This document shows positions 16,157 through 63,250 of a stretch of 64,000 nucleotides of DNA, piece after piece. Under the pieces are notes generated by a model, which had not been told where the DNA came from, made no database searches, and worked only from the letters and a program-made list of their open reading frames with translations. The first letter of the stretch is position 1. Each line of letters starts with the position of its first letter. Made by a program: the position numbers and the translations under genes. This DNA comes from Deltaproteobacteria bacterium (GTDB lineage: Bacteria; Myxococcota_A; UBA9160; UBA6930): contig VGRF01000002.1 of the NCBI GenBank assembly GCA_016875395.1, forward strand, positions 62,001 through 126,000. Reading direction: 5' to 3'.

Positions 16157-16523
16157 CGGATTCTCACGCGTAGGTCGGAGTTGTTACTGGCGTCGCGCCT
16201 CGCGCCGGGCCGGGCGCTGCTGCGCGGGATGGCTCGCTCGGGGCTTGCCGGTTGAAGGTGCTACGCGGGCGCTTGGCCGCGCTGCGCGTCGCTCCGCTCG
16301 CGCATTCTCGCGCCCCTCGCTGCGCTTGATTCCCGCTCCGCAGCGCCCGGCCCGGCGCGAGGCGCTCCTCGGTGGGGGAGCACGGTCGTGACTTTGTGGG
16401 GAACGGCGCAGCCATCGCGGCCTCGAGCCGCTCTGGCTGCGCTGCGCGCGTAGTTGCTTCATCGGTCATCGAGGATGGCTCGGAGATTCGTCGTCGTGTT
16501 CCACAGCGAGCGGTAGCGAGTTG
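16157..16523. other. Intergenic gap dominated by the palindromic element
   Basis: The 367-bp space between the stop of astD and the start of the DDAH-like gene. Apart from the palindromic element it contains TTGTTACTGG at 16181 and a 16521-16529 copy of TTGTTACGG that supplies the TAA stop of astD on the minus strand. No gene or promoter was recognised in the remainder (16366-16520). Confidence 0.6.
16195..16365. repeat. Long palindromic element, copy 1
   Basis: The arm at 16195-16219 is perfectly complementary to 16341-16365 (25/25). Pairing continues inward with interruptions (for example GCGGGA near 16224 with TCCCGC near 16331). The ~120-nt interior contains GGCTCGCTCGGGGCTTGCCG. The same element, with different but again fully complementary arms, is at 23748-23919. 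It lies between astD and the DDAH-like gene in a minus-strand run and has no convincing coding frame. Confidence 0.85.
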
Positions 16524-17946
16524 TTACGGCTCGGGTACGCCGGGCGGGAGGCTCTTTGCGTCGAACGGCTGCTCGTTCAGCGTCATGGACTGGGGTTCGG
16601 TGCAGTAGAGCGTGGCGAGGACGGCGGCGGGGCGGTGGTTGCCGCTCTTCTTGCCGCCGCCGAAGGGGAGCTTGCCGCTCGCGCCGATCGTGCCGCGGTT
16701 CCAGTTGAGAATGCCGGTCTGGATGCGGCCCGCGCAGTGCTCGAAGTGCTTGCGCTCGCGCGTCATCACGGAGGCGGCGAGGCCGAAGTCGGAGTCGTTC
16801 ACGGCGGCGATCGCTTCGTCGAGATCTGTTACGGCGTAGAGCGCGGCTTCCGGGCCGAAGATCTCTTCGCGTTGGTACGCGTGCGTCTGCGCGGCGGAGC
16901 CAAAGCGCGTGAGCGCGGGAGCGACGTAGGGAGCGATGCGCGCGATCTCGCCGCGGAAGATGCGCTCGCCGCCGGCGTCGCTCGCGAGACCGCGGTAGCG
17001 CATCACTTTGTCGAAGGCGGCGCGCGAGACGAGGGGGCCCATGAACACGCCGGGCTCGAGCGGCGGGCCGATCTTCATGCCGGAGAGCACGCGCACGAGT
17101 CGCTCGGTGAACTCCGCTTCGATTTCGCGATGCACGAACACGCGCGAGAGGCACGAGCAGCGCTGGCCTGTCGTGGCGGCGATCGAGAGCGCGGCCTCGG
17201 CGGCGGCGAGGCGCAGATCGGCGTCGCGCCACACGATCATCGCGTTCTTGCCGCCCATCTCGAGCGCGAGAATCTTGCCGGGCTGATCGAGCGTGGCCTG
17301 CGTGAGCGCTCGGCCGACGTTCCACGAGCCGGTGAAGAGAATCCCGTCGACGTGCGGGTGGAGCGCGAGCGCTTGGCCGGCGGGTGCGCGGCCCTGCACG
17401 AGCTCGAAGACGCCGCGCGGCAGGCCGGCGTCGCGCAGTGCGCGCATCAGCCACTCGCCGACCGCGGGCGCGAGGTCGCTCGGCTTGAACACGACGCAGT
17501 TCCCCGTAACGAGTGCGGGCACGATGTGGCCGTTCGGGAGATGCGCGGGGAAGTTGAACGGGCCGAGCACCGCGAGCACGCCGCGCGGGTGGAACACGGC
17601 GCGCGCCGTCGGGCCCGCCTCGATCGGCGCCACGAAGCGCATGCCGTCGTCGAGCGTGACGTCGACCTTGGGCGCGATCAGCGCCGCCTCACCGCGCGCG
17701 TCCCAGAGCGCCTTGCCGACTTCGCGCGCGATCAGCAGCGCGAGCGCTTCCTGCCGCGCCTTCGCGATGTCGCGGAAGCGGCGCAGCACTGCGGCGCGCG
17801 CCTCGAAGCCCGCGTCGCGCCACGCGGGAAACGCGGCGCGCGCGCGCAGGACCGCCTCGTCGATCGCGGGCTCGTCCCAGATCGGGAAGCGCCCGACCTC
17901 GTCGCTCGGGTCGGCGGGGGGGGACGCTGCGGATGACTTCGGGCAT
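16524..17946 (-). CDS. astD: N-succinylglutamate-5-semialdehyde dehydrogenase, frame break near start
   Basis: NAD-dependent aldehyde dehydrogenase. The Cys nucleophile is in TTGQRCSCLSRVFVHRE (about 263), the Glu in LALEMGGKNAMIV, and the C-terminus has LPFGGGKKSGNHRPAA. The pattern FNFPAHLPNGHIVPAL and KNAMIV match AstD rather than general ALDHs. The only good start, ATG at 17946 (MPEVIRSVPP), lies 16 nt after the astA stop, but it is out of frame with the body. A run of eight C on the coding strand (17916-17923) separates the two, and seven would join them as VPP-ADPSDEVGRFPIW. Either the genome has an indel error, or the tract is slippery. The final stop TAA is part of a CCGTAACAA motif. 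Expected role: oxidation of the semialdehyde made by the class III aminotransferase. Confidence 0.88.
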
Positions 17947-17962
17947 CGTTCAGGGCTGCTTG

Positions 17963-19000
17963 TTAGGGGAGCGGAGTCACGTGCACGCGCTCGCCGCTCT
18001 TGACTGCGAGGGCTTCGCGCACGTCGGCGGACACGAGCGGCGCGCCCTCGGCGTCGACCGGCACCACGGTGGCGCGGAAGCGGCCGCCGGCCTCGGTCGA
18101 GAGCAGCGCGAGGTTCGCGTTCTTCGTGCCCTGTGAGCCGCGCGGCACGCCGGGCAGCACGAGCTCGCGGCGCTCCCGTACCGACACGATCGCGTCGCGC
18201 GCCGCGCCGTAATAAGGGCCGCCGTCGAACGGGTCGACTTGGTTCATCGGGAAAAAGCCGATCTTCTCGAGGATCGCGACGGCCGCCTTCGCGGTTTCGT
18301 TCGGCTGCCCGATGATCTTCTGCGTCTCTTCGGGGAACAGCGCGACGTAGACCGGGTCCACCGGGAAGAGATCCGCGATGAACTGCTTCGTCTTGGCCGA
18401 AAGATGGTCCGCGGTGCGGAAGTCGAGGCCGGTGAACTTCGCGCCGAATGCGTCCCAGAGCCGATTCTTCCCCGGCGCGTCGAAGCGCGAGAGCATCTCG
18501 GCGATCACCTGCTTCTCGAAGCGTCGCGGGTGCGCGGCCATGTAGGCGAAGCGCACGATCGAGAGCGCCTTGCCCGCCTTGCGCGGGTGGTGGCGATACG
18601 CCGGGTCGATCACGAGGCCGCCGATCTCGGTGGGGCCATCGGTGGTGGACTGCAAGCGCAGCTTCTTGTGCAGGAAGCGCTTGTCGAGCTCGGGGCTGCG
18701 GCGCTCCTCGGTCGAGACCTCGAGCCAATAATAAGGGCGACCCGGACGGCCGTGCTTCGCCATGATCAGCGAGGTGCCGATCGTCTTCTTCGCGTCGAGG
18801 TCTTCGAGCGCGAACATGTAGATCGCCTCGCGCCAGTCGAGCGAGTCTTCGCCGCGCGCCGAGCGGAACGAGCGGCCGCTGAGCGCGATGCGCTCGACGA
18901 GGAACTGCGGGTCGGCCGGCAAGTTCATCGAGTCGAGCAGCTTGGCGAGGGCGACGAGATCGTCGAGATCGCCCTCGTTCACGGGCCTGAGAATCAACAT
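17963..19000 (-). CDS. astA: Arginine N-succinyltransferase
   Basis: 345 residues, equal to the length of E. coli AstA. It transfers succinyl from succinyl-CoA to the alpha-amino group of arginine (some homologues also use ornithine). Recognisable segments are MLILRPVNEGDLDDLVALA at the start, GLVIDPAYRHHPRKAGKALS, GKNRLWDAFGAKFTGLDFRTADHL and FPMNQVDPFDGGPYYGA. The ATG overlaps the stop of the preceding aminotransferase gene by 7 nt (ATGTTGA), which indicates translational coupling. The stop TAA lies in a CCTAACAA motif at 17960. It is the committed enzyme of the AST branch and identifies the pathway for its neighbours. Confidence 0.93.
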   Translation of the reverse strand: MLILRPVNEGDLDDLVALAKLLDSMNLPADPQFLVERIALSGRSFRSARGEDSLDWREAIYMFALEDLDAKKTIGTSLIMAKHGRPGRPYYWLEVSTEERRSPELDKRFLHKKLRLQSTTDGPTEIGGLVIDPAYRHHPRKAGKALSIVRFAYMAAHPRRFEKQVIAEMLSRFDAPGKNRLWDAFGAKFTGLDFRTADHLSAKTKQFIADLFPVDPVYVALFPEETQKIIGQPNETAKAAVAILEKIGFFPMNQVDPFDGGPYYGAARDAIVSVRERRELVLPGVPRGSQGTKNANLALLSTEAGGRFRATVVPVDAEGAPLVSADVREALAVKSGERVHVTPLP

Positions 19001-20370
19001 GCGAGTCCCTTCTCGTTCGCGACGCGCCGCATCGCGCGCTCGAGCGCAGCGAAGCCCGCGTCGAGCTCTTCATCAGTCACGTTCACCGGCAGCAGCATGC
19101 GGATCTTCATCGGATCCTTGCCGGCGCCGAACACGATCACGCCTTCGTCGAATGCGGCTTTGAGAATCGCGTTCACGGTCGCGGGCGCGCCGTCGAACGG
19201 AGTGAACGCCTGCATCGCGCCGATTCCGCTGCGCGCGCCTACCGCGTTCGGCATGCGCGCCGCGAGCGACACGAAGCGAGCCTCGACGCGCCGCGCGATG
19301 CCGGCGACGCGCCAGTTCGCGCCGAGGAATCCCTCGCCCGCGAGCTTCTCGATGATGCGCGCGCCGACGGTCATGCCCACTGTCGCGCCGGCGTAGGTGC
19401 CCGCGACGAGTCCTTCGCGTGGGTTGTAGTCCTTCGTGTAGAGGACTGCGCTGCCCTGCAGGACCTTCCCGACCGTGACGAGATCGACGTACTGCTCGAG
19501 CCCGAGCGTCTTGTGCGCGAACAGCTCGCCCGTGCGCGCGAAGGTCTGCACCTCGTCGACCCACACCGCGATCTTCGCCGCGCGGCAGCGTTCCATCAGC
19601 GCGACGAAGAACTCACGCGGCGCGGTGTTGAAGCCGCCTTCCCCCTGGACGAGCTCGAACAGCATGCCTGCGACCTGACACGGGTAGCGCTTCAAGTGCG
19701 CGTCGAGCACCGCGAGCGAACGCTGCGTACCGCCTTCCACGCGCGGATCGAAGAACGGCACGTAAAGCACGTTGCCTCGAAGCGGCAGGCCCTCGCGGAA
19801 GCCGGGCTTGTCGGTCAGCTCGGCCATCGTCGTGGTGCGGCCCGCGAAGGCGTTCTCGAACGCGATGACGAAGTGCGCCGGGTAATGCTTCTGCCAGATC
19901 ATCTTGATCGCGTCCTCGTTCGCCATCGCGCCCGAGAGCGAGAGCCAAGCGTGAGCAAGCCGCGGCGACGCGTGGCTCAACAACAAGCGCGCGAGGTGCA
20001 GCTGCTCGAGGCCCGGCGCGAGGTTGCCCTGAAACACGATGTCGCGGGCGGCCGCGATCACCGCGCTCTCGAGCAGGTCGCGCTCGGAATGGCCGAACGC
20101 GTAGACGCCGATGCCGCCGATGAAGTCGAGCACGCTCCGGCCGTTCGCGAGGCGCACGCGCGCGCCTTCGCCGAGGCCGGAGAGCACGAGGGGATAGAAG
20201 AGGGGGCGCCCGCGCACGTCGGCGAGCTGCTGCATCGCGGCCGCGTAGCCCTCCGCGTCGAGCGGGCGCGCGGCGATCTCGCGCTGCACCGCGTCCACCA
20301 GCGCACGCGCGGCAGCCTTCACGGCGGCGGAGTTCGAGACGGCTTCGAGTGAGGCTTCCGGGGTCGGCAT
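18994..20370 (-). CDS. Class III aminotransferase (succinylornithine/lysine type)
   Basis: 458 residues from the ATG at 20370. PLP-binding features: LSLSGAMANEDAIKMIWQ, WVDEVQTFARTGELFAHK, and the Schiff-base Lys in VDLVTVGKVLQGS. The context directly upstream of astA and astD suggests succinylornithine transaminase (AstC role). However, the sequence is divergent from ArgD/AstC: the usual GxGRTG is FARTG, and the protein is about 50 residues longer, with an N-terminal extension. It could instead use lysine or ornithine at the omega-amino group. First gene of the minus-strand run; its upstream region (20371-20551) is shared with a divergent gene. Confidence 0.82.
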   Translation of the reverse strand: MPTPEASLEAVSNSAAVKAAARALVDAVQREIAARPLDAEGYAAAMQQLADVRGRPLFYPLVLSGLGEGARVRLANGRSVLDFIGGIGVYAFGHSERDLLESAVIAAARDIVFQGNLAPGLEQLHLARLLLSHASPRLAHAWLSLSGAMANEDAIKMIWQKHYPAHFVIAFENAFAGRTTTMAELTDKPGFREGLPLRGNVLYVPFFDPRVEGGTQRSLAVLDAHLKRYPCQVAGMLFELVQGEGGFNTAPREFFVALMERCRAAKIAVWVDEVQTFARTGELFAHKTLGLEQYVDLVTVGKVLQGSAVLYTKDYNPREGLVAGTYAGATVGMTVGARIIEKLAGEGFLGANWRVAGIARRVEARFVSLAARMPNAVGARSGIGAMQAFTPFDGAPATVNAILKAAFDEGVIVFGAGKDPMKIRMLLPVNVTDEELDAGFAALERAMRRVANEKGLAC

Positions 20371-20551
20371 GGCGCAGCAACTTATCGGCAGAATTTCCGG
20401 TCGCTTGGGCTCGCCCGCCCAGACCGCTTCGATCGCACGTCTCCGCTCGGGCTGAAGTCCAGTCAGTCGCTCGCGTTGGGCGAACGCCACGCCGAAGGCG
20501 GGCCGCATTTCTCCATTGAACGCGTTTCGCGCCGCGCCGATACCTTCGGCC

Positions 20552-21397
20552 ATGTCCGCAGAGCTCGAAAACCCGCGCCGCCGCCGCGAGACGCTGCGCC
20601 GCGAGCGCACGCACCACATCGCGCGCAAGCAGGCCCTGCAGGCCACCGTGCCCTACCTCGCGGTGGTGCGCGCGCCGCGTCACCCGCGCGCAGGCCGCGA
20701 GATGGGCCGCGAGTTCACGGTCGCCACCTACAACGTGCACCGCTGGTCGGGCCTCAACGGCGCGAGCACGCCCGACGCCGCGCGCGCCGGGTTCGTGATC
20801 AGCGAGCTCGGCGCGGATGTGATCGCGCTGCAAGAAGTTCTCAGACCGTTCGAGGGCGACGATCCGCTCGAACGCATCGCCGACGCGCTGCACCTGCACG
20901 TCGCGTTCGCGACGGCGCGCGTGCATCGGCTCGGGGAGCTCGGCAACGCGATCCTCTCGCGCTGGCCGATCACCAGCGTGTTCACGCTCGACCTCACGTT
21001 CTCGAACGTCGAGCGCCGCTCCGCCGTGGCCGCGCAGTTCACCACCGACAACGGGCCCGTCGCGATCGTGGCGACCCACCTCGCGCTCGTGGACCGCACG
21101 CGCCGGCAGCAGGTCGATCAGCTGCTCGGCCATCCGCGCCTGCAGGGGCCCGTCGTGTTGTTAGGCGACATGAACGCGTGGCGGCGCTGCAAGGCCACGA
21201 AGGCGCTCGACGCCGAGCTCGGCGGCGGGGCCGAGTTCCCGCGCACGTTCCCCGCCGCGAGCCCACTGCTCGCGCTCGATCGCATCTACGCGCGCGGCGC
21301 CGACGTGAGCGAGATCGCCGCGCACAAGACGCCCGCGGCGAAGCGCGCGTCGGACCATCTGCCCGTCGTCGCGAGAGTGAAGCTCGGGCGCGAGTGA
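20552..21397 (+). CDS. Endonuclease/exonuclease/phosphatase family protein
   Basis: 281 residues from ATG 20552. After a basic N-terminal stretch (PRRRRETLRRERTHHIARK, residues 7-25) comes the metal-dependent EEP fold: VATYNVHRW near 57, VIALQEVLRPFEG with the metal Glu, LGDMNAWRR with the Asp-x-Asn pair near 200, and KRASDHLPVVARV with the catalytic Asp-His near 270. Substrate may be DNA, a phospholipid headgroup or an inositol phosphate; nothing in the sequence decides. No signal peptide is seen. VLLGDMN is encoded with TTG-TTA at 21158. Confidence 0.85.
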   Translation: MSAELENPRRRRETLRRERTHHIARKQALQATVPYLAVVRAPRHPRAGREMGREFTVATYNVHRWSGLNGASTPDAARAGFVISELGADVIALQEVLRPFEGDDPLERIADALHLHVAFATARVHRLGELGNAILSRWPITSVFTLDLTFSNVERRSAVAAQFTTDNGPVAIVATHLALVDRTRRQQVDQLLGHPRLQGPVVLLGDMNAWRRCKATKALDAELGGGAEFPRTFPAASPLLALDRIYARGADVSEIAAHKTPAAKRASDHLPVVARVKLGRE

Positions 21398-21424
21398 GCC
21401 GGAGCGCGCGGCTATCGTCGCCGC

Positions 21425-21739
21425 GTGCGTCTTCTCCTCCTCGCCACGCTCGCTGCGCTCCTCGTCGGCTGCGCGGCGACCTCCGCTACGCGCCTGTTTC
21501 GCTCCGGCACCGCGGCGCTGGACCGCGGCGACGAGATCGCCGCCGTGCGCGATCTCGAACAGGCCGCGCGCCTCCTGCCGGGCTCTTCCGCCGTACAGAA
21601 CCACCTCGGCCTCGCGTACGCCGCCTCACGGCGCGACGCCGATGCGCTCGCCGCGTTCGAGCGCGCGGTCGCGCTCGACTGTGACAACCAAGCCGCGCAG
21701 CAGAACCTCGCTCGCGCGCGCGCCCACGCGGCTCGTTAG
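21425..21739 (+). CDS. Small TPR lipoprotein
   Basis: 104 residues with a GTG start. Lipobox LLVGC at residues 12-16 of MRLLLLATLAALLVGC, so lipid attachment is expected and, with no Asp at +2, probably outer-membrane sorting. Two TPR-like helices pairs follow (TRLFRSGTAALDRGDEIAAV and LGLAYAASRRDADALAAFER). Likely a protein-interaction lipoprotein. It precedes fur by 9 bp and may be cotranscribed with it. Confidence 0.75.
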   Translation: MRLLLLATLAALLVGCAATSATRLFRSGTAALDRGDEIAAVRDLEQAARLLPGSSAVQNHLGLAYAASRRDADALAAFERAVALDCDNQAAQQNLARARAHAAR

Positions 21740-21748
21740 CGTCTCGCG

Positions 21749-22195
21749 ATGGCGAACGAGCTCGAGCAGAAGGCCCTCGCGAGCTACCTCGAGGACCACA
21801 ACCTCAAGCACACGAAGCAGCGCGAGGCGATCCTCGACGTCTTCCTCGAGACGCGCGGCCACATCACCGCCGAGTCGCTCTTCAACAAAGTGCGCGAGGC
21901 GCACCCGGGCGTCGGCTTCACCACCGTCTACCGCACGATGAAGCTGCTGTGCGACGCCGGCCTCGCGATCGAGCGCCACTTCGACGACGGCGTCGCGCGC
22001 TACGAAATCGAGCACGAGCACCACGACCATCTCGTGTGCACGCGCTGCGGCAAGATCGTCGAGTTCGAGTGCGCGATGATCGAGCAGGCGCAGGAAGAGA
22101 TCGGCAAGCGCTACGGCTTCCGCTTGTTACGGCACCGCCACGAGCTCTACGGCCATTGTCCCGAGTGCCAGAAGCGCGAACGACCTCTGCGGTGA
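21749..22195 (+). CDS. fur: Ferric uptake regulator family protein
   Basis: 148 residues. The winged-helix part includes HTKQREAILDVFLETRGHIT and VGFTTVYRTMKLLCDAGL (recognition helix). The regulatory metal site is in EHEHHDHLVCTRCGKIVEFE, and the structural zinc ligands are the two CxxC pairs CTRC (about 94-97) and CPEC (about 137-140). This is the Fur/Zur/PerR family; full-length and both CxxC pairs fit Fur, but Zur or PerR cannot be excluded by eye. The stop overlaps the GTG start of the methyltransferase gene by 4 nt (GTGA). Confidence 0.9.
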   Translation: MANELEQKALASYLEDHNLKHTKQREAILDVFLETRGHITAESLFNKVREAHPGVGFTTVYRTMKLLCDAGLAIERHFDDGVARYEIEHEHHDHLVCTRCGKIVEFECAMIEQAQEEIGKRYGFRLLRHRHELYGHCPECQKRERPLR

Positions 22196-22971
22196 CGGGC
22201 CGCGAAATCGTGCTCACGGAAGCGCAGCGCGCGCGGCTCGCGCTTCCCCGATACCCGCGCAGCGCGAAGTACGACGCCGCGTGGGCGATCGCGAACATGA
22301 TGGGGCCGAACGCGCTGTGGCTGATGGAAGCGCTGTGCGCGGCGCTCGCGCTCGAGCCGGGCATGCGCGTACTCGACCTCGGTTGTGGCAAGGCGATCTC
22401 GTCGATCTTCCTCGCCCGAGAGTTCGGCGTACGCGTGTGGGCCGCAGACTTGTGGATCGCACCGACCGACAACCTTGCACGCATCGAGCAGGCTGGCGTT
22501 TCGGATCTCGTGTTCCCGCTGCGCGCCGAAGCGCACGACCTGCCCTTCGCGGAGCGCTACTTCGACGCGGTCGTGAGCGTCGACGCGTATCACTATTTCG
22601 GCACCGCGGATCTCTACTTCGCGCAGCACGTGGCGCCCATCGTCAAGCCGGGCGGCCAGTTCGGAATCGTCGTCCCCGGTGTCGCCGCGGAGCTGACCGA
22701 AGCTCCGCCGCGCCTCACCCCGTACTGGGATCCCGCCTTCTCGAGCTTTCACAGCCCTGAGTGGTGGCGCGGAAACATCTCGCGCAGCGGGCGCGCGACC
22801 GTCACGACGGCCGACCGCCTGCCAGAGGCGTGGCGCGACTGGCTGTCGTGGCAAGAGGTGTGCGCCGAGGCGGGGATGCGACCCGAGGCCGCGCGACGTG
22901 AGGCGGAGATGCTGCGCGCGGACGCCGGCGAGCTGCTCGGCTTCACGCGCCTGGTCGCGCGCGTGACCTGA
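22192..22971 (+). CDS. SAM-dependent methyltransferase
   Basis: 259 residues with a GTG start overlapping the fur stop. Class I fold: motif I is VLDLGCGKAISSIFLAREFG near residue 60, motif II VWAADLW, motif IV FDAVVSVDAYHYFG, and post-motif LKPG-like IVKPGGQFGIVVPG. Closest to the small-molecule methyltransferases of the ubiE/cyclopropane-synthase-like group. The N-terminal LTEAQRARLALPRYPRSAKYD is unlike UbiE. Substrate unknown; coupling to fur may mean only shared transcription. Confidence 0.85.
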   Translation: MTGREIVLTEAQRARLALPRYPRSAKYDAAWAIANMMGPNALWLMEALCAALALEPGMRVLDLGCGKAISSIFLAREFGVRVWAADLWIAPTDNLARIEQAGVSDLVFPLRAEAHDLPFAERYFDAVVSVDAYHYFGTADLYFAQHVAPIVKPGGQFGIVVPGVAAELTEAPPRLTPYWDPAFSSFHSPEWWRGNISRSGRATVTTADRLPEAWRDWLSWQEVCAEAGMRPEAARREAEMLRADAGELLGFTRLVARVT

Positions 22972-23012
22972 GAATCATTCAGTCGGGGGCGCGAGCCGCC
23001 GAAACACGTGGC

Positions 23013-23171
23013 ATGGCGCGCCAGCAATACATCGAGTGCCCGATTTGCGACACCGACATCGCGCTCGAAGGCGCGAAGCCCGGCGACGAGATCTTCTGCG
23101 GCTACTGCGGCGCGCCGATCACGCTCGCGAAGGGCACGGACGAGGAGTCGTTCGAGGCCGAGGAGTACTGA
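23013..23171 (+). CDS. LysW-like acidic zinc-ribbon mini protein
   Basis: 52 residues from ATG 23013 to TGA 23171. It opens with MARQQYIECPICDTDIALEG; CxxC pairs are ECPIC (9-12) and FCGYCG (29-32), and the tail ESFEAEEY is acidic. Length, the spacing of the two Cys pairs, the D-I-A-L-E-G and G-D-E-I strings and the acidic end are those of LysW, the amino-group carrier used in lysine or arginine biosynthesis by some bacteria and archaea. The C-terminal residue here is Tyr rather than the Glu used for conjugation, so carrier function is not assured. It may simply be a zinc ribbon. Neighbours (methyltransferase, rmlC) give no clue. Confidence 0.75.
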   Translation: MARQQYIECPICDTDIALEGAKPGDEIFCGYCGAPITLAKGTDEESFEAEEY

Positions 23172-23175
23172 GCGC

Positions 23176-23724
23176 TCAGTAGCGCGGCAGCTTGTCGCGC
23201 AGCTCCGCGAGCTTTGGCGCCGCCGCGTCGCGATTCGAGAGCGTCGGCACGAGCACCGGCCACGGCACCGCGAGCTCCGGATCATTCCACGCGATCGCGA
23301 TCTCGCTCTTCGGCTGATACGGCTCGGTCACCTTGTACTCGACCTCGGCGGTCTCGCTGATCACGAGAAAGCCGTGCGCGAAGTTCGGCGGGATCCAGAG
23401 CTGGCGGAAGTTCGTGGCCGTGAGAGGCGTCATGAAGTGCTTGCCGAACGTGGGCGAGCCGATGCGGATGTCGACCGCGACGTCGAGGATCTCGCCCGCG
23501 ATGCAGCGCACGAGCTTGCCCTGCGCGGGATCGAGCTGGGCATGCAGGCCGCGCAGCGTGCCCTGGCGCGAGCGTGAGTGGTTGTCCTGCACGAAGGGCG
23601 CGCTGATGCCGTGCTGCGCGTAGCGCTCGGCGCGGTAGGTCTCGAGGAAGAAGCCGCGTTCGTCTTGGTGCACGAAGGGCTCGATCAGAAGGACGCCGGG
23701 GAGGGGTGTTTGGTGAACCTTCAT
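23176..23724 (-). CDS. rmlC: dTDP-4-dehydrorhamnose 3,5-epimerase
   Basis: 182 residues, normal for RmlC/RfbC. Cupin-fold epimerase in dTDP-L-rhamnose synthesis. Key parts: GVLLIEPFVHQDERGFFLETY at the start, QDNHSRSRQGTLRGLHAQ with the catalytic His near 60, RQLWIPPNFAHGFLVIS, and EVEYKVTEPYQPKSE with the conserved Tyr. It lies 4 bp from the LysW-like gene (convergent). The rmlA gene is upstream on the same strand but is separated by 319 bp holding the second palindromic element. The rmlB and rmlD genes are not in the window. Confidence 0.94.
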   Translation of the reverse strand: MKVHQTPLPGVLLIEPFVHQDERGFFLETYRAERYAQHGISAPFVQDNHSRSRQGTLRGLHAQLDPAQGKLVRCIAGEILDVAVDIRIGSPTFGKHFMTPLTATNFRQLWIPPNFAHGFLVISETAEVEYKVTEPYQPKSEIAIAWNDPELAVPWPVLVPTLSNRDAAAPKLAELRDKLPRY

Positions 23725-23747
23725 CGTGGGGGCTCGTTCGTTGCGCC

Positions 23748-23919
23748 GCGCCGTGCGGGGGGCCGGGGGCTGCTGCGCGCGATGGCTCGCTCGGGGCTTG
23801 CCGGTTGAAGGTGGCACTTGGGCGCCTGGCGGAGTGGCGTGGACGGTTTCCGCCGGCTTGCTCGCGCCCCTCGCTGCGCTTGATTCGCGCTCCGCAGCCC
23901 CCGGCCCCCCGCACGGCGC
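23748..23919. repeat. Long palindromic element, copy 2
   Basis: The arm at 23748-23772 is perfectly complementary to 23895-23919 (25/25). Compared with copy 1 at 16195, five arm positions differ and all five are compensated on the other arm. A further inner pair (GCGCGA with TCGCGC here, GCGGGA with TCCCGC there) also co-varies. The interior starts and ends with the same sequence as copy 1 but differs in the centre (23812-23860). It lies between rmlA and rmlC within a minus-strand pair. Confidence 0.85.
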
Positions 23920-23960: not shown

Positions 23961-23995
23961 CGAATCTTCGGCGGCTGCGAGCCGCCGAAGATTCG
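23961..23995. terminator. Strong 16-bp hairpin downstream of rmlA
   Basis: CGAATCTTCGGCGGCT (23961-23976) pairs without mismatch with 23980-23995 across a 3-nt GCG loop. It lies 49 nt beyond the rmlA stop on the minus strand. No T tract follows on either side, so it may be a processing or stability hairpin rather than an intrinsic terminator. Confidence 0.6.
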
Positions 23996-33456: not shown

Positions 33457-34770
33457 TCAGAGCGGCGTGAGGCCCGCATCCGAGATCTGCCGCTGCTTCA
33501 ACTTCCCCTTCTCGTAAACCGACTTCACGTCGATCTTCCCGTCCTGGTTCTTGTCCTCTTCGCGCAGCGCGAGCAGCGAGCGGCCGCTCGTCGTCTCGTA
33601 CGTCTCGAACGTGTCGCGCTTGCCGTCGGCGTTGCTGTCGCGCTCGATGCGCGCGATCAGGTCGTTCGAGTAAGCCGTCCAGGCGTCGACCTTGCCGTCG
33701 TGGTTCAGGTCTTCCTCGGCGCGCTCGAGCTTCTTGTCCTTGTAGAAGACGACGCGGTCGATCGTGGTGTCGCCGTTCGTGTCGTGGCGCTCCTCGGCGA
33801 GCGCGCCGGAGCGGAACACGAAGAACGCGTCGCGCTGGCCGTTCGCGTCACGGTCGATTTCGCGCGAGGCCATGCGGCCGTCCTTGCCGAACACCTGCCA
33901 CTCGTCCGTCTTGCCGTCCCCGTCGTTGTCCTGCTCGATGCGCGCCACCGCGGCCGCCTCGTACGTCGTCCACTCGTCGATGTCGCCGTCGTAGTCGCGA
34001 TCGGCTTCCTTGCGCAGGATCTGGCCGGTCGTCTCGTCGTGGAAGCGCACCTCTTCGGGCGCGCCATCGCGGTCCGCGTCGATCGAGCGCACCAGCACCG
34101 CGAGCTCGCGCGTGTTGCCCCAGGCGCCGACCGCGATCTTGCGGTGCTCCTCGTCGAAGATCGCGGCCGGGAGGTCCTTCGGCGCGGGAGCCGTCGGCGC
34201 TTCGCGGCTGTCGGCGATCGCGCCGACGGCGGCTTCCTGCGCGGCGCCGGCAGCCTCGAGCTGCTCGGTCTGCTCGATCTGCCGTAACAACTCTTCTTGA
34301 CGCTCGAGCTCGCCGGCGATCTCGTCCTCGAGCTCGTCCGTGCGCTCCGACTCCCTCTCGATCTCGCGCTCCATCTCCTCTTCACGGCCGCGCTCGCTAC
34401 CCGGGTAGCGCCCGCCGCCGCCACCACCGAGGGGGTTCTCGCCCGTGATCGCGCCGTAGATCATCTGCGTCACGCCGCCGACCGCGGCCCCGATCGGACC
34501 CGCCTGAGCGCCCACGATCGCGCCGATCAGCATTCCCTGCGCGGCAGCCCTCGCGCGATCCCCGGCTGTGACGCCGTCGTTCTGGGGATCATCCGGGTCC
34601 GTGTCCGCTTCTTCCGGAATACCCGCCGTGGGGTCGTCGGGATCACCGGAGCTGTTGTCCACCGACGAGACCGGGGGCAGCGGCTTCCCCCGCGACGCGC
34701 TGCCGCCCCCGTTCGCGCACCCGATCGCGGTGGCGAGCAGCAGGCACAGGATCGCGGTCAGGGTTCGCAT
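33457..34770 (-). CDS. Lipoprotein with eight EF-hand-like calcium loops
   Basis: 437 residues from ATG 34770. Lipobox ATAIGC at 13-18. After an Asp/Pro-rich linker (about 35-65) comes a Gly/Ala membrane-active segment (AAQGMLIGAIVGAQAGPIGA), a Glu/Arg coiled coil (about 125-175, REEEMEREIERESERTDELE), then at residues ~225-420 eight loops spaced about 23-28 residues. They are DADRDGAPEE, DRDYDGDIDE, DNDGDGKTDE, DRDANGQRDA, DTNGDTTIDR, DLNHDGKVDA, DSNADGKRDT and DKNQDGKIDV. These follow the Dx[DN]xDG calcium pattern. Periplasmic, outer-membrane-attached calcium-dependent scaffold is a plausible inference; no enzyme signature is seen. Confidence 0.85.
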   Translation of the reverse strand: MRTLTAILCLLLATAIGCANGGGSASRGKPLPPVSSVDNSSGDPDDPTAGIPEEADTDPDDPQNDGVTAGDRARAAAQGMLIGAIVGAQAGPIGAAVGGVTQMIYGAITGENPLGGGGGGRYPGSERGREEEMEREIERESERTDELEDEIAGELERQEELLRQIEQTEQLEAAGAAQEAAVGAIADSREAPTAPAPKDLPAAIFDEEHRKIAVGAWGNTRELAVLVRSIDADRDGAPEEVRFHDETTGQILRKEADRDYDGDIDEWTTYEAAAVARIEQDNDGDGKTDEWQVFGKDGRMASREIDRDANGQRDAFFVFRSGALAEERHDTNGDTTIDRVVFYKDKKLERAEEDLNHDGKVDAWTAYSNDLIARIERDSNADGKRDTFETYETTSGRSLLALREEDKNQDGKIDVKSVYEKGKLKQRQISDAGLTPL

Positions 34771-39026: not shown

Positions 39027-41654
39027 ATGTCACTCGCCTCGCTCGCGCGGCACGAGCGCGCCGGTCGCCTCGAGCCCGTTCGGCTGGGCGTGCGTTACTC
39101 GGCCGACGTGCCGCCGCACCGTAGCGGCGACGGTGTGCTCGGCGCGATCGCGTTTGCGGAGGCGCCGCTCGCGGTCGGCACGCACCGCCTCGGCCCGTTC
39201 GAGATCTCCGTCTCCGCGGATCTGCGCGGCAGCGACGCCGCCTTCGACATCGCACTGCGCTCGCGCGCGAGCGAGCCGCTCTACGTCGAGTCGATCGTGC
39301 TCGGCGTGCGCTGGCGTCCGCCCGCCGCCGAGAGCGGGATGCGCTTCCTGCGCAACGGCTGGCAGTCGTGGTCGTTCAGCGGAGCGCGCGAGCTCGACGC
39401 TACGGGCGCTGCGCCGTTCCCATCGGGTCCGTGGCTACGCGGGATGTTTCACGCAATCGGCCAGCCGGCTGCGGACCGCGCGGGCTGGCACGAGTCCGAT
39501 CTCGTCACCGCGGCGGCTGCGCCGAGCGGCGCGACGTGCCTCGCTGGGCTCTGCGAAGCCGGCCGTGCGATGGGCCTCGTTTACTTGCGGCGCGAGTCGG
39601 AGACGGTGCGCGTCGAGGTCGAGGCGCAGCTCGAAGTGGTGGCCGCGCCCGCCGAGCGGATCGAGAGCGAGCGCTTCACGTTCGCGCTCGGCGACTCCGC
39701 GGACGCGCTGCTCGAGCAGTTCGCGGCGGAGCTGGGCGCGCGAGCGGGCGCGCGGACGAACGCGCCGTTCCAGGCCGGCTGGTGCAGCTGGTACCAGTTC
39801 TTCGCGGCGGTCTCCGAGGCCGACATCCTGCGCAACCTCGAGTCGCTAGCGAAGCTGCGCGCCTCGCTGCCGATCGACGTCGTGCAGATCGACGACGGCT
39901 ACCAGCGCGCGACCGGCGACTGGCTCGCGACGAACGCGAAGTTCCCGCGCGGCCTGGCGCCGCTCGCGGCGGACATTCGCAGCGCAGGCTTCCAAGCAGG
40001 CATCTGGACGGCGCCCTTCTGCGTGGTTGCCGAGAGCGACACGTTCCGGCTGAACGGCGACTGGTTGTTACGGCGCGGCGACGCGCCATTCCTCGGCCTG
40101 CTTCACCGCGAGTGGGCCGCGGACTCGCGCGTCTACGTGCTCGATCCCTCGCTGCCGGCGGTGCAGCGCCACCTGCGCAGCACGTTCGCCGCGCACGCGG
40201 CGATGGGCTTCACGTACTTCAAGCCGGACTTCCTCTACGCCGCCGCGATGCAGGCCGACGCAGCGGACGCCTCGCTGCCGCGCGCCGCGCGCCTGCAGCG
40301 CGGGCTCGCCGCGATGCGCGAAGGCGCAGGCGCGGAGGCGTTCATCCTCGGCTGCGGCTGTCCCCTCGGCGCGGCGGTCGGCTTCGTCGACGGCATGCGC
40401 ATCGGGCCCGACACCGCGCCGCACTGGAAGCCGCGCGCGGGCATCGCCGGCATCGAGGACACCGCGGCGTCCGGCGCGAACGCGCTGCGCAACACCTTCG
40501 CGCGCGTCTTCATGCACCGGCGGCTTTGGCTCAACGACCCCGATTGCTTGATGGTGCGCAGCGCGAGCACCGAGCTCACGCCCGCGGAGATTCACTCGCT
40601 CGCCGCCGGCATCGCGGCGAGCGGCGGCATGGCGATCGTCTCGGACGACGTGGCGGCGCTCTCGCCCGGCGACCTCGAGTTGTTACGGGAGTCGCTCGCG
40701 CTCGCGCGCGAGGTGGACGCCGGCGCGGCGCACGGCACCGCGCGCGCGCTCGGGCTGCTCGACGCCGGCGGCCCGCATGGAATCGTGAGCCACACGCAGA
40801 ACGCCGTGATCGCGGTCGCGCACAACGCGAGCGATGCGCCGGCCACGCTGTCGCGCGACGTCTCGCGCGAGCTGGCGGCGCGCGGTGCGCTCCCGCCGTT
40901 CGCGCTGCTCGGCGGCACAGAGCCGGAGCCGCGCGACGATGCGCTGCTGCGCGCCGAGCTCGCGCCGCACGCGAGCCTCGCGGTGCGCGTCGCGAAGGAC
41001 GTGCGCCTCGCGGTGTTCTGCGATTACGACGGCACGTTCGCGAAGCAGGACGTGGGCTCGACGATCGTGCGCACGCACGCAGCCGAGCGCCGCGCGCAGC
41101 TGTGGGCGCGGCTCGAGCGCGGCGAGCTCGACGCGTGGTCGTACAACATGGAGCTGCTGAACGGCCTCGCGTATCCCGAGCGAACGCTGAACGAGTTCCT
41201 GAGGACGATCGAGATCGACCCCGGCGGACGCGCGCTGGTCGACTGGTGTGAAGAGCACGGCATTCCGTTCCGCATTCTCAGCGACGGCTTCGACTACAAC
41301 CTCGAGCGGCTGCAGCGCATCCATGGCGTGCGCTTCGCGCACGACTCGAACCGGCTCTGGTACGAGCAAGACCGCTGGCGCATCGCGGCGCGTTACCCGG
41401 ATCCCCGCTGCGGCTGCGCCACCGGCGTCTGCAAGGCCGCGCGCATCCGCGAGTTCCGAACGCACCACCCGGGCGCGCGGGTGATTCACGTCGGGAACGG
41501 ACGCGTCTCTGACTTGTGCGGCGCGCGCGCGGCCGATCTCGTGTTCGCGAAGGACTCGCTGGCGGAGGAGCTCACGAAGCAGGGCGTCGCGTTCGAGCCG
41601 TTCGAGACGCTGCACGACGTGATCGCCAGCCTCGAACGGCTCGTCTCCGGCTAG
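39027..41654 (+). CDS. GH36 alpha-galactosidase fused to HAD (MtnX-like) phosphatase
   Basis: 875 residues from ATG 39027. Residues 1-655: glycosidase of clan GH-D with NGWQSWSFSGA, AGWCSWYQFFAAVSE, VVQIDDGYQRATGDWL, the nucleophile Asp in TYFKPDFLYAAAMQ, and the acid/base Asp in MRIGPDTAPHWKPR. The GH36 part ends ELAPHASLAVRV as in other family members, followed at once (near 41001) by a haloacid dehalogenase domain. The latter has motif I VFCDYDGTFAKQD, motif II ILSDG, Lys in FAKDSL, and HVGNGRVSDLCG for motif IV; this is the MtnX-like HAD-IB type. Both active sites look intact. One chain that can cleave a galactoside and dephosphorylate a product suggests a phosphorylated sugar substrate. 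Start overlaps the divergent gene. Confidence 0.92.
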   Translation: MSLASLARHERAGRLEPVRLGVRYSADVPPHRSGDGVLGAIAFAEAPLAVGTHRLGPFEISVSADLRGSDAAFDIALRSRASEPLYVESIVLGVRWRPPAAESGMRFLRNGWQSWSFSGARELDATGAAPFPSGPWLRGMFHAIGQPAADRAGWHESDLVTAAAAPSGATCLAGLCEAGRAMGLVYLRRESETVRVEVEAQLEVVAAPAERIESERFTFALGDSADALLEQFAAELGARAGARTNAPFQAGWCSWYQFFAAVSEADILRNLESLAKLRASLPIDVVQIDDGYQRATGDWLATNAKFPRGLAPLAADIRSAGFQAGIWTAPFCVVAESDTFRLNGDWLLRRGDAPFLGLLHREWAADSRVYVLDPSLPAVQRHLRSTFAAHAAMGFTYFKPDFLYAAAMQADAADASLPRAARLQRGLAAMREGAGAEAFILGCGCPLGAAVGFVDGMRIGPDTAPHWKPRAGIAGIEDTAASGANALRNTFARVFMHRRLWLNDPDCLMVRSASTELTPAEIHSLAAGIAASGGMAIVSDDVAALSPGDLELLRESLALAREVDAGAAHGTARALGLLDAGGPHGIVSHTQNAVIAVAHNASDAPATLSRDVSRELAARGALPPFALLGGTEPEPRDDALLRAELAPHASLAVRVAKDVRLAVFCDYDGTFAKQDVGSTIVRTHAAERRAQLWARLERGELDAWSYNMELLNGLAYPERTLNEFLRTIEIDPGGRALVDWCEEHGIPFRILSDGFDYNLERLQRIHGVRFAHDSNRLWYEQDRWRIAARYPDPRCGCATGVCKAARIREFRTHHPGARVIHVGNGRVSDLCGARAADLVFAKDSLAEELTKQGVAFEPFETLHDVIASLERLVSG

Positions 41655-60646: not shown

Positions 60647-63250
60647 TCAGAAATCCAGCCTTCGATCCGCCGGCGATTCCTCCGCCATCGCCTCGCCGCT
60701 CGGCGCGCTCACACGGTCGAGCGGCTCGGTGCCGGTGAGGAACGCCTCCTCCATCGCGTACTTCGAGGAGCCGCTCGCGAGAGCGCCGGTCTTGGTGTCG
60801 ACGCGCAAGAGCGAGACGCCATCGGGCACTTCGGGCTCGGCGGGTTTTCGCTTCTCGAGTGCAGCTTCCATGAACGACATCCAGATCGGGAGCGCGGCCA
60901 CGCCGCCGGTCTCCTTGGGCCCGAGCACGTCCCGCGCGTCGATTCCGACCCACACCCCCGTAACAACTCGCGGCGAGAAGCCGACGAACCACGCGTCGGT
61001 TTGGTCGTTCGTCGTGCCGGTCTTGCCCGACAAGTACGGCCCGAGCTTGCGCGCGCGGCCCGCCGTGCCGTTCGGGTGCTCGACGGGCGCGCGCAGCATC
61101 CGCGCCGTCACGTACGCGTGCGCGGGCGCCATCGCATAGCCGCGCGGCACGACGAGCTCCGGCGCGACGCGCTTCTCGACGATCTCCTCGACCGGGCCGA
61201 AGTCTCCGAGCGCCTCGTCTTCGAGCGGGAGCACGTCTTCTTCCTCGGGCGCTTCGGCCGCTTCGCTCTCCGCGACGACGAGCTGCTTCTCGGCTTCAGC
61301 CTTCGCTTCCTCGCCGTCGTCCTCCGCTGTCTTCTCGTCCTCGGGCTTCTCGATCGGCCCGTCGAGCGGCACGTTCTCGATCACCACCTCGCCCTTGCGA
61401 TCGAGCACGCGCGCGATCAGCCGCGGCTCCACGAGACGGCCACCTGACGCGAACACGCCGTAGGCGCGCGTGATCTCGAGCAGCGTCACGGAGCTCGTGC
61501 CGAGCGCGAGCGCGAGACCGCCGTCGAGCGGCGACTTGACGCCGAGCCTGCGCGCGAGCTCTTGGGTGGGCTCGATGCCGACGTCGCTCAGCACGTAGAC
61601 CGCGGCGTTGTTGATGGAGCGCGCGAGCGCCTCGGTGAGCGTGAGGCGCCCGAGGAACTCGCGGCCGTAGTTCTCCGGCCGCCAGAGCGAGCCGCTGCCG
61701 TCGTCGTACACCGCGGGCCGGTCGTAGACGATCGTGGCGGGCGTGAAGCCCGCGGCGAGCGCGGCGGCGTAGACGATCGGCTTGAATGCGCTGCCGGCTT
61801 GGCGGCGCGCCTGCGTCGCGCGGTCGAACTCGCTGCCCGCGAAGTCGTAGCCGCCCACGAGTGCGAGCAGATCGCCGGTCTGCACGTCGTACGAGAGCAG
61901 CGCGCCCTGCACGTCGGGCACCTGATACAGCGCCGCACTCGGCTCCGTCGCGCCCTCGGCGGGAGCTGTCAGGGAGAACTGCGCGACGTCGCCGGCCGCG
62001 AGCGCCTGCGAGAGCTTCGCGATCGAGGCGCCGTGCGTGCCGGGCTTTTTCGCGTGCGCCCAGCTCGACGAGGCGAGCGTCACGTTCGCTTCGACGCCGG
62101 CGCCGAACGCGACGCGCGCGAGCTTCTTCGCGTCGTCGACCTTCAGCACGACGCCGGTGCGCGGCTTCGCGAAGAACTCCGGCGCGAGCGGCACGCCCTC
62201 GGCGAGCGCGTTCTCCTCCGCGAGCTTCGGCAGCTCCGCCGCGATCGCGTCCGGAGCGACCTTGCGCAGCGCGCCGCGATAGCCGCGGCGATGGTCGAGC
62301 GCCTCGACGCCGCTCTGCAGCGCCGCGACCGCGCGCTTCTGGAGCGCGAGGTCGATCGTGGTCTCGACGCGCAGCCCGCCGTTCAGCACGCGCTCGTTGC
62401 CGATCTCGGCGACGAGCCGCCGGCGCACCTCTTCGGTCACGTAGGCGGCGACCTCGAAGTCCGTGGTCGACGGCGAGCGCAGCACGGGTTTTGCCGCGAG
62501 CTGCGCAGCGTAAGTCGCGTCGTCGATGTGGCCGACATCGCGCATGCGTCCGAGCACGTACACGCGCCGCTCCTCTGCGCGCACGGGATTCAGGTAGGGC
62601 GAGAATTTCCCCGGAGCCTTCGGCAGTCCCGCGATCAGCGCGGCCTCGCTGGCCGTCAGGTCCGCGAGCGACTTGTCGAAGTAAGTGCGCGCCGCTTCCG
62701 CGACGCCGTAAGCGCCGCTGCCGAAGTAGATGTGGTTCAGGTAGCGCCAGAGGATCTCGTCCTTGCTGAAGCGCTCCTCGATTTGGCCCGCGAGCACGGC
62801 CTCTTTCGCCTTGCGCGAGTAGGTGCGCTCGCTCGTGAGCAGCAGGTTCTTCGCGAGCTGCTGCGTGATCGTGCTCGCGCCCTGCGTCTCGTCGGTCGTG
62901 AGATTCGTCCAGGCAGCGCGCAGCGTGGACACGAAGTCGACGCCGCCGTGCTCGTAGAACTTGTCGTCCTCGGCCGCGAGGAACGCGTTCACGACGAGCT
63001 TCGGAATCTCGTCCATCGGCGTGAGGGTGCGCCGCTCGCTGTAGAACTCGCCGATCAGCGCGCCGCTGCGGTCGTACACCCGGCTCGTGAGCGGCGGCTC
63101 GTAGCTGTCGAGCGCCGTCAGGTCGGGCAGGTCGCTCGTGACCCACATCCAGAGCAGGCCCGCGCCGGTCGCCGCGATCAGTACGAGCAGCCCGAACGCA
63201 ACGCCGATCCGAATGAGCGTCGCCCGTGACACTTCCGCCCGCCCCCTCAC
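60647..63250 (-). CDS. mrcA: Class A penicillin-binding protein (PBP1A)
   Basis: 867 residues. TM helix 12-33, GT51 transglycosylase (DDKFYEHGGVDFVSTLRAAW, GASTITQQLAKNLLL, EILWRYLNHIYFGSGAYGV), transpeptidase with the active Ser in RQAGSAFKPIVYAAAL, SxN in ARSINNAAVY, and KTG in YLSGKTGTTNDQTDAWF. Between them is the PCB_OB-like region. At residues about 627-697 (61165-61370) there is an acidic insert rich in Glu (EKTAEDDGEEAKAEAEK and AEAPEEEDVLPLEDE) not in enterobacterial PBP1A. Inner-membrane peptidoglycan synthase. Confidence 0.95.
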   Translation of the reverse strand: MRGRAEVSRATLIRIGVAFGLLVLIAATGAGLLWMWVTSDLPDLTALDSYEPPLTSRVYDRSGALIGEFYSERRTLTPMDEIPKLVVNAFLAAEDDKFYEHGGVDFVSTLRAAWTNLTTDETQGASTITQQLAKNLLLTSERTYSRKAKEAVLAGQIEERFSKDEILWRYLNHIYFGSGAYGVAEAARTYFDKSLADLTASEAALIAGLPKAPGKFSPYLNPVRAEERRVYVLGRMRDVGHIDDATYAAQLAAKPVLRSPSTTDFEVAAYVTEEVRRRLVAEIGNERVLNGGLRVETTIDLALQKRAVAALQSGVEALDHRRGYRGALRKVAPDAIAAELPKLAEENALAEGVPLAPEFFAKPRTGVVLKVDDAKKLARVAFGAGVEANVTLASSSWAHAKKPGTHGASIAKLSQALAAGDVAQFSLTAPAEGATEPSAALYQVPDVQGALLSYDVQTGDLLALVGGYDFAGSEFDRATQARRQAGSAFKPIVYAAALAAGFTPATIVYDRPAVYDDGSGSLWRPENYGREFLGRLTLTEALARSINNAAVYVLSDVGIEPTQELARRLGVKSPLDGGLALALGTSSVTLLEITRAYGVFASGGRLVEPRLIARVLDRKGEVVIENVPLDGPIEKPEDEKTAEDDGEEAKAEAEKQLVVAESEAAEAPEEEDVLPLEDEALGDFGPVEEIVEKRVAPELVVPRGYAMAPAHAYVTARMLRAPVEHPNGTAGRARKLGPYLSGKTGTTNDQTDAWFVGFSPRVVTGVWVGIDARDVLGPKETGGVAALPIWMSFMEAALEKRKPAEPEVPDGVSLLRVDTKTGALASGSSKYAMEEAFLTGTEPLDRVSAPSGEAMAEESPADRRLDF

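Follow-up and report, generated by a model that had tools for sequence, protein, structure and literature searches.

The window, a stretch of 64,000 nucleotides of bacterial DNA, contains two long palindromes, here called copy A and copy B, which form hairpin elements on the minus strand at positions 16195 to 16365 and 23748 to 23919, respectively. Copy A has a DDAH-like and an astD-like gene as neighbours, both scoring below the NCBIfam cut-off, and copy B has rmlC and rmlA, both above it. Copy B precedes the rmlC start by 23 nt and has the same orientation as this gene. The two perfect 25-bp inverted repeats reported in a first-pass annotation were confirmed by a direct sequence check; they pair 16195-16219 with 16341-16365 in copy A and 23748-23772 with 23895-23919 in copy B. 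Exactly as described there, the arms of the two copies differ at five positions which are all compensated on the opposite arm, and an inner pair (GCGGGA/TCCCGC versus GCGCGA/TCGCGC) is likewise altered jointly. Both palindromes proved to be larger than first stated. The outer stem, P1, of copy A has arms of 35 nt at 16195-16229 and 16331-16365, which are 94% complementary, are separated by 101 nt, and consist of the perfect 25 bp followed inwards by a part in which two mismatches are conserved; the corresponding arms of copy B span 23748-23782 and 23885-23919. Inside P1 two conserved internal-loop strands are found. In copy A these are 16228-16236 (GATGGCTCG on the plus strand, CGAGCCATC on the minus strand) and 16319-16331 (the CTGCGCTTGATTC region on the plus strand, GAATCAAGCGCAG on the minus strand), enclosing a variable inner region at 16237-16318, and in copy B they are 23781-23789 (GATGGCTCG) and 23873-23885 (the CTGCGCTTGATTC region). 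The two copies share identical core segments of 32 nt and 24 nt, where the chance expectation is 0, and the predicted folds yielded z-scores of -6.6 (copy A) and -7.0 (copy B) against dinucleotide shuffles, none of 200 shuffles folding as well. In copy A it is the minus strand which tolerates G-U pairs, a property described below.

A second, smaller GC-rich hairpin lies about 40 nt from copy A on the minus strand (16406-16442), and another beside copy B (23961-23995, minus strand). This smaller hairpin is also variable in sequence and accompanies most copies at this distance in the genome of the window only; it may be the normal terminator of the gene upstream. Together with the sequence CGCCCGCC-N-CGAGGA it precedes the element in this genome and not elsewhere. 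The 10-mer GTAACAACTC / GAGTTGTTAC occurs at both ends of copy A (16178-16187 and 16518-16527) and further at 34284-34293, 40677-40686, and 60960-60969 of the window. In the whole genome 183 occurrences were counted (96 and 87 on the two strands), whereas the reversed control gave 0; most of them fall within genes, in any frame, often as GAG TTG TTA CGG. It is therefore a genome-wide short signal resembling an uptake or segregation sequence, its presence at both ends of copy A is poor evidence of a target duplication, and its interpretation as a direct repeat flanking copy A was rejected.

The first-pass annotation had described an element of two copies. Both are real, but no fewer than 14 are present in the genome, so that compensated change is a property of a family and not a coincidence between two copies. 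A DNA search of the whole genome (4.51 Mb) found further full copies on several contigs, and a covariance model built from 11 copies of this genome detected 14 clear and three weak ones in it. A search of this kind had been suggested as a check, with the absence of further copies and of covariation in relatives as a refutation. Both are in fact present in relatives: the model matched nine of 14 genomes of the same family and, with as many as 43 copies in a genome, at least 28 of the 80 genomes belonging to the order; several relatives carry between 17 and 51. When an exact pattern was used instead, 24 of 379 genomes of the phylum matched, one with 51 copies, and all 24 belonged to the same order, while the 299 genomes of the phylum outside this order gave 0 matches, as did the reversed control. 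Nearly all genomes seen by name are metagenome-assembled (MAGs), and all organism names among the matches listed are Myxococcota, 'Deltaproteobacteria', 'Proteobacteria', or unnamed MAGs. An assembly artefact was rejected since the element is present in many independent assemblies. A phage origin was rejected too, the single match among viral contigs being a chance match in coding DNA which lacks the arms. The hairpin, of about 170 bases, is a previously unlisted family from one order of uncultured myxococcus-like bacteria. More than 140 distinct copies were read, many of them paralogous within one genome and some orthologous between species. Together they form an extensive natural data set on the way in which long palindromes keep their pairing as the sequence changes, a question of long standing for the evolution of both RNA and REP sequences.

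Each copy is a single imperfect hairpin, in most cases of about 150-175 bp, with an outer stem P1 of 25-30 bp whose arms vary freely and co-vary. The shortest copies measure about 80-115 bp, and the shortest clear one (L092) contains hardly anything besides the stem and both loop strands. On the opposite strand from the one on which the motif was first read, the conserved internal loop is 5'-GAARUMAAGCGCA facing 5'-CGAGCCAUUC, and the element runs from the arm through GAA R U M (A/G) AGCG(C/G)A, a variable inner part and C GAGCCAUUC to the other arm. A set of 146 distinct elements shows this core with a conservation which is inflated, as the set was partly chosen by the loop motif; the model-based set has the same core with few departures. 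The variable inner part often holds a short GC-rich inner stem, P2. One subtype (L055, L062, L063, L073, and others) has a second conserved inner strand pair, TCGAACGCGC / GCGCGTACTCGA, and in the genome JAOTUO (L133-L211) many copies share an inner GGCGGCGCAGCCGCC hairpin carrying AGTGAGCCGAAGGCGAACGAAG, perhaps a further repeat that sits inside the loop. The border of the unit is sharp, as the information content of 29 copies from the genome richest in copies is at background just outside P1. No T-tract was found at the element. A MITE is characterised by terminal inverted repeats, a target-site duplication, and a related autonomous element; here the whole element is one inverted repeat, no constant duplication was found beside it, and no autonomous copy was seen.

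The first-pass annotation had also claimed that base pairing is maintained in this element, and this was borne out both in the genome's own copies and in relatives. Among the 11 copies used for the model, two-sided changes occur at 16 of 27 stem pairs, 96.6% of the cells are paired compared to 77% after shuffling, and the covariation score is 0.453 as against 0.117 for shuffled alignments (none of 500 as high) and at most 0.086 for slid controls. The structure was derived from these same copies and the covariation count leans towards it; the perfect pairing can be seen directly in the letters. In one relative, with 31 copies, each of the four pair types is encountered at positions of the arms, and in two elements (L004 and L006) the arm length differs by 1-2 bp on both sides simultaneously. 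As the arms change in sequence and yet stay paired, it must be the folded single strand itself that matters. Another finding was that this strand has a fixed polarity. Counted on the motif strand, the P1 pairs at least 10 positions away from the core comprise, in the 146 distinct elements, 2743 Watson-Crick pairs, 53 A.C, 3 G.T, and 37 other mismatches. An A.C on the motif strand is a G.U on the complementary strand, which makes 53 G-U pairs on one strand and three on the other. Counted by distinct sequence contexts the ratio is 49 to 3 (p about 1e-11; as related copies enter the counts, exact p-values are optimistic here and for the placement below), and the inner stem P2 shows a bias in the same direction (10 versus 3). 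Tolerance of G.T pairs does not discriminate between DNA and RNA.

With genes called by our own codon-usage caller, 28 of a first set of 55 copies were found between convergent genes, 26 between tandem genes (13 in each orientation), and one between divergent genes. A second, largely separate set of 84 copies yielded 59 convergent, 19 tandem (12 versus 7 by orientation), and six divergent positions, compared to 14, 65, and 66, respectively, for 145 control gaps on the same contigs (p = 1.7e-21 against the second set). Genes and divergent gaps are thus avoided and the copies sit at the 3' ends of genes, at a median distance to the gene end of 30 nt on the motif-facing side and 100 nt on the other. 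Inverted pairs resembling BIME or REPIN dimers are common, about 25 bp apart in the genomes G003 and G008 and wider elsewhere. In these two genomes (L283-L337) the pairs have the order type 2 (plus strand), about 25 bp, type 1 (minus strand), with the flanks GCCGCTTCGCTTCTCGT / ACGAGAAGCGAAGCGGC. A fixed gene neighbourhood was rejected, the neighbours being diverse and the few shared orthologues close to chance by a rough estimate. Among the candidates named at first, a REP/MITE-like element fits best, whereas an RNA leader was rejected, as most copies lie between convergent genes, the orientation in tandem gaps shows no preference, and no consistent 5' position on the same strand is kept.

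A second possibility is that the hairpin terminates transcription in both directions, or blocks read-through, where two genes converge. This would agree with the 70% of copies with both neighbours known that lie between convergent genes, with the median of 30 nt from stop codon to hairpin on one side, and with the very stable fold. The hairpin lacks a T-tract, however, and does not qualify as an intrinsic terminator; no terminator-like site was found at copy A, and one in the region of copy B is not the element. Copy B lies ahead of rmlC and codirectional with it, a terminator would need neither the conserved internal loop nor a polarity which is fixed in all contexts, and we regard this explanation as unlikely. 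The polarity was 29 to 3 between convergent genes, 6 to 0 in tandem gaps with the genes on the G-U strand, and 9 to 0 with the genes on the other strand. Since it is the same in every context with data, selection acts on the folded single strand in a fixed polarity and not on a read-through mRNA.

This last point also bears on a structured RNA, the alternative which deserves most attention and to which we would assign a real, though minority, chance. Each copy would then be transcribed from the minus, G-U tolerant strand, and the transcript would fold into an extended hairpin whose internal loop binds a protein or a ligand; it could work in trans, or else serve as an element for transcript ends, RNase III, or stability. 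The G-U polarity, the conserved internal loop between two variable stems, the constraint on resident copies described below, the location at gene 3' ends, and a 5' spacer (median 100 nt) exceeding the one on the 3' side (median 30 nt) all speak for it. Against it, the polarity is independent of the direction of the neighbouring genes, and a sigma70 promoter of its own upstream of the G-U strand was rejected, as the AT content there is flat, no conserved or AT-rich promoter region is present, and sigma70-like scores are no better than in shuffled sequence. A search of Rfam gave no match at the gathering score, the sub-threshold matches being microRNA models which fit any long hairpin. An independent non-coding RNA, among the candidates proposed in the beginning, may still apply, but a promoter signal for it was not found.

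Copies are multiplied within genomes. Of 120 copies, 86 had their nearest copy in their own genome, compared to 10.7 with shuffled labels, and the identity between copies was 0.66 within a genome and 0.42 between genomes. Two congeneric genomes with about 93% protein identity share at least 10 intergenic sites with an element in both. In seven orthologous elements of the same type (203 stem pairs) six two-sided compensated changes were found, together with six one-sided wobbles, all of the favoured and none of the opposite polarity, and four other one-sided stem changes. The loops of these elements differ by 12%, for which our arithmetic predicts about 43 one-sided changes without constraint, a comparison resting on seven elements. 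One orthologous pair has a 1-bp insertion in both arms and a compensated transversion. At other orthologous sites the arms were kept with a different interior subtype, or the whole element type differs; between G003 and G008 the interiors of L285 and L332 are swapped with the arms kept. These patterns indicate that resident copies are maintained and also exchanged; an empty site could not be demonstrated. Constraint in a fixed polarity at orthologous sites exceeds a purely selfish need and implies some function of the resident copies. Template switching is known to give rise to compensated changes in a single event (PMC8794818), and long inverted repeats which correct themselves in this way would be a mutational curiosity maintained without selection. 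The compensated indels and multi-base compensated changes are what this mechanism would produce. It cannot create the polarity, though, and it leaves the 49 to 3 ratio, the conserved internal loop, the multiplication, and the 3'-end placement unexplained; we therefore give this explanation very little credence.

No transposase, recombinase, or other partner of the element was found. Y1 transposases are present in eight of nine element-bearing genomes of the same family, and linkage to such genes had been proposed as a check, which turned out negative, as none of the 30 Y1 transposase loci of this family has the hairpin element adjoining. One genome (G004) has 31 Y1_Tnp matches, an expanded transposase family; most of them cover the domain only in part and lie in frames of about 120-300 amino acids. 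In the genome of the window a single RAYT-like Y1 transposase (L110:1441-2262, contig 6) is flanked by ACGTACGTGCA palindromes and forms with these a separate classical REP-like system. That the hairpin is a classical REP of a RAYT system grown large appears highly improbable. The placement, the inverted pairs, the Y1 transposases, and the RAYT-like protein would suit it, but the palindromes flanking the only RAYT-like gene of this genome are unrelated to the hairpin and the GTAG/CGTC tag is missing: among 141 feet on the 5' side of the motif GTAG was found eight times and CGTC 11 times, compared to two and nine in windows 50 nt away.

What is observed is a single imperfect hairpin of REP-like behaviour, kept paired in one polarity regardless of the neighbouring genes. 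The explanation we prefer, at slightly under even confidence, is a lineage-specific dispersed repeat which acts like a very large REP and whose folded single strand is used by a strand-specific enzyme. The working form would more probably be single-stranded DNA than RNA, a preference based on the polarity which ignores gene direction, the end of the unit with the palindrome, and the missing promoter signal; as resident copies are constrained, RNA stays a serious rival. The enzyme would act in trans and recognise the conserved internal loop, in the way TnpA-REP handles REP hairpins, and new copies would survive where genes and promoters stay unbroken. The arms may then drift, a change in one arm being matched in the other, partly via wobble intermediates and probably in some cases in one step by template switching between the arms, which would also account for the compensated insertions. 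A bolder version, to which we would give a minority chance, is a new type of dispersed hairpin that is both mobile and useful in situ, its fixed-polarity strand being read by an enzyme through a new internal-loop motif, while the arms co-evolve at resident sites and interior cassettes are exchanged between elements sharing arms. The fixed polarity is a direct and testable prediction of a user of the single strand, and the internal loop offers a concrete bait to find it.

Compared to known systems, the hairpin shares with REP, BIME, and REPIN sequences (PMC3733652, PMC2817692, PMC3116915) that these are extragenic palindromes multiplied per genome, often as inverted pairs, and that the imperfect palindrome is broken by conserved unpaired bases. 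REP sequences, too, are placed outside genes near 3' ends, mainly between convergent or tandem (codirectional) genes (PMC3733652). They measure 20-40 bp and exceed 100 copies, however, as against about 150-175 bp and tens of copies here; they have a GTAG/CGTC tag at the foot, while the hairpin is conserved in an internal loop in the middle of the element with freely variable arms; and their cognate RAYT is flanked by the repeats, while the hairpin has no linked RAYT. The hairpins of IS200/IS605 elements and the substrates of TnpA-REP (PMC8266576) would explain a folded strand of fixed polarity with a conserved interruption. Elements of the IS200/IS605 type are defined by the strand-specific cleavage of single-stranded DNA by an HUH transposase; for the hairpin neither a linked transposase nor a cleavage motif was found. 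RNAs in Rfam with an internal-loop core have in common with it a conserved, asymmetric internal loop set between two stems of variable sequence and the tolerance of G-U pairs, but P1, with its 25-30 pairs of almost exclusively Watson-Crick type, has an unusual length and a promoter signal is missing. In attC sites of integrons the structure is conserved despite variation of the stem sequence, only one of the strands is the working strand, and the core boxes are located at the foot. The hairpin resembles them in its conserved structure and working strand and differs in that its foot and flanks are not conserved and its core is internal. As it works like a REP but departs from one in size, tag, and RAYT linkage, the family was filed as a variant of the extragenic palindromic repeats, and it shows that neither small size nor a tag nor linkage to a RAYT is required of a REP-like repeat.
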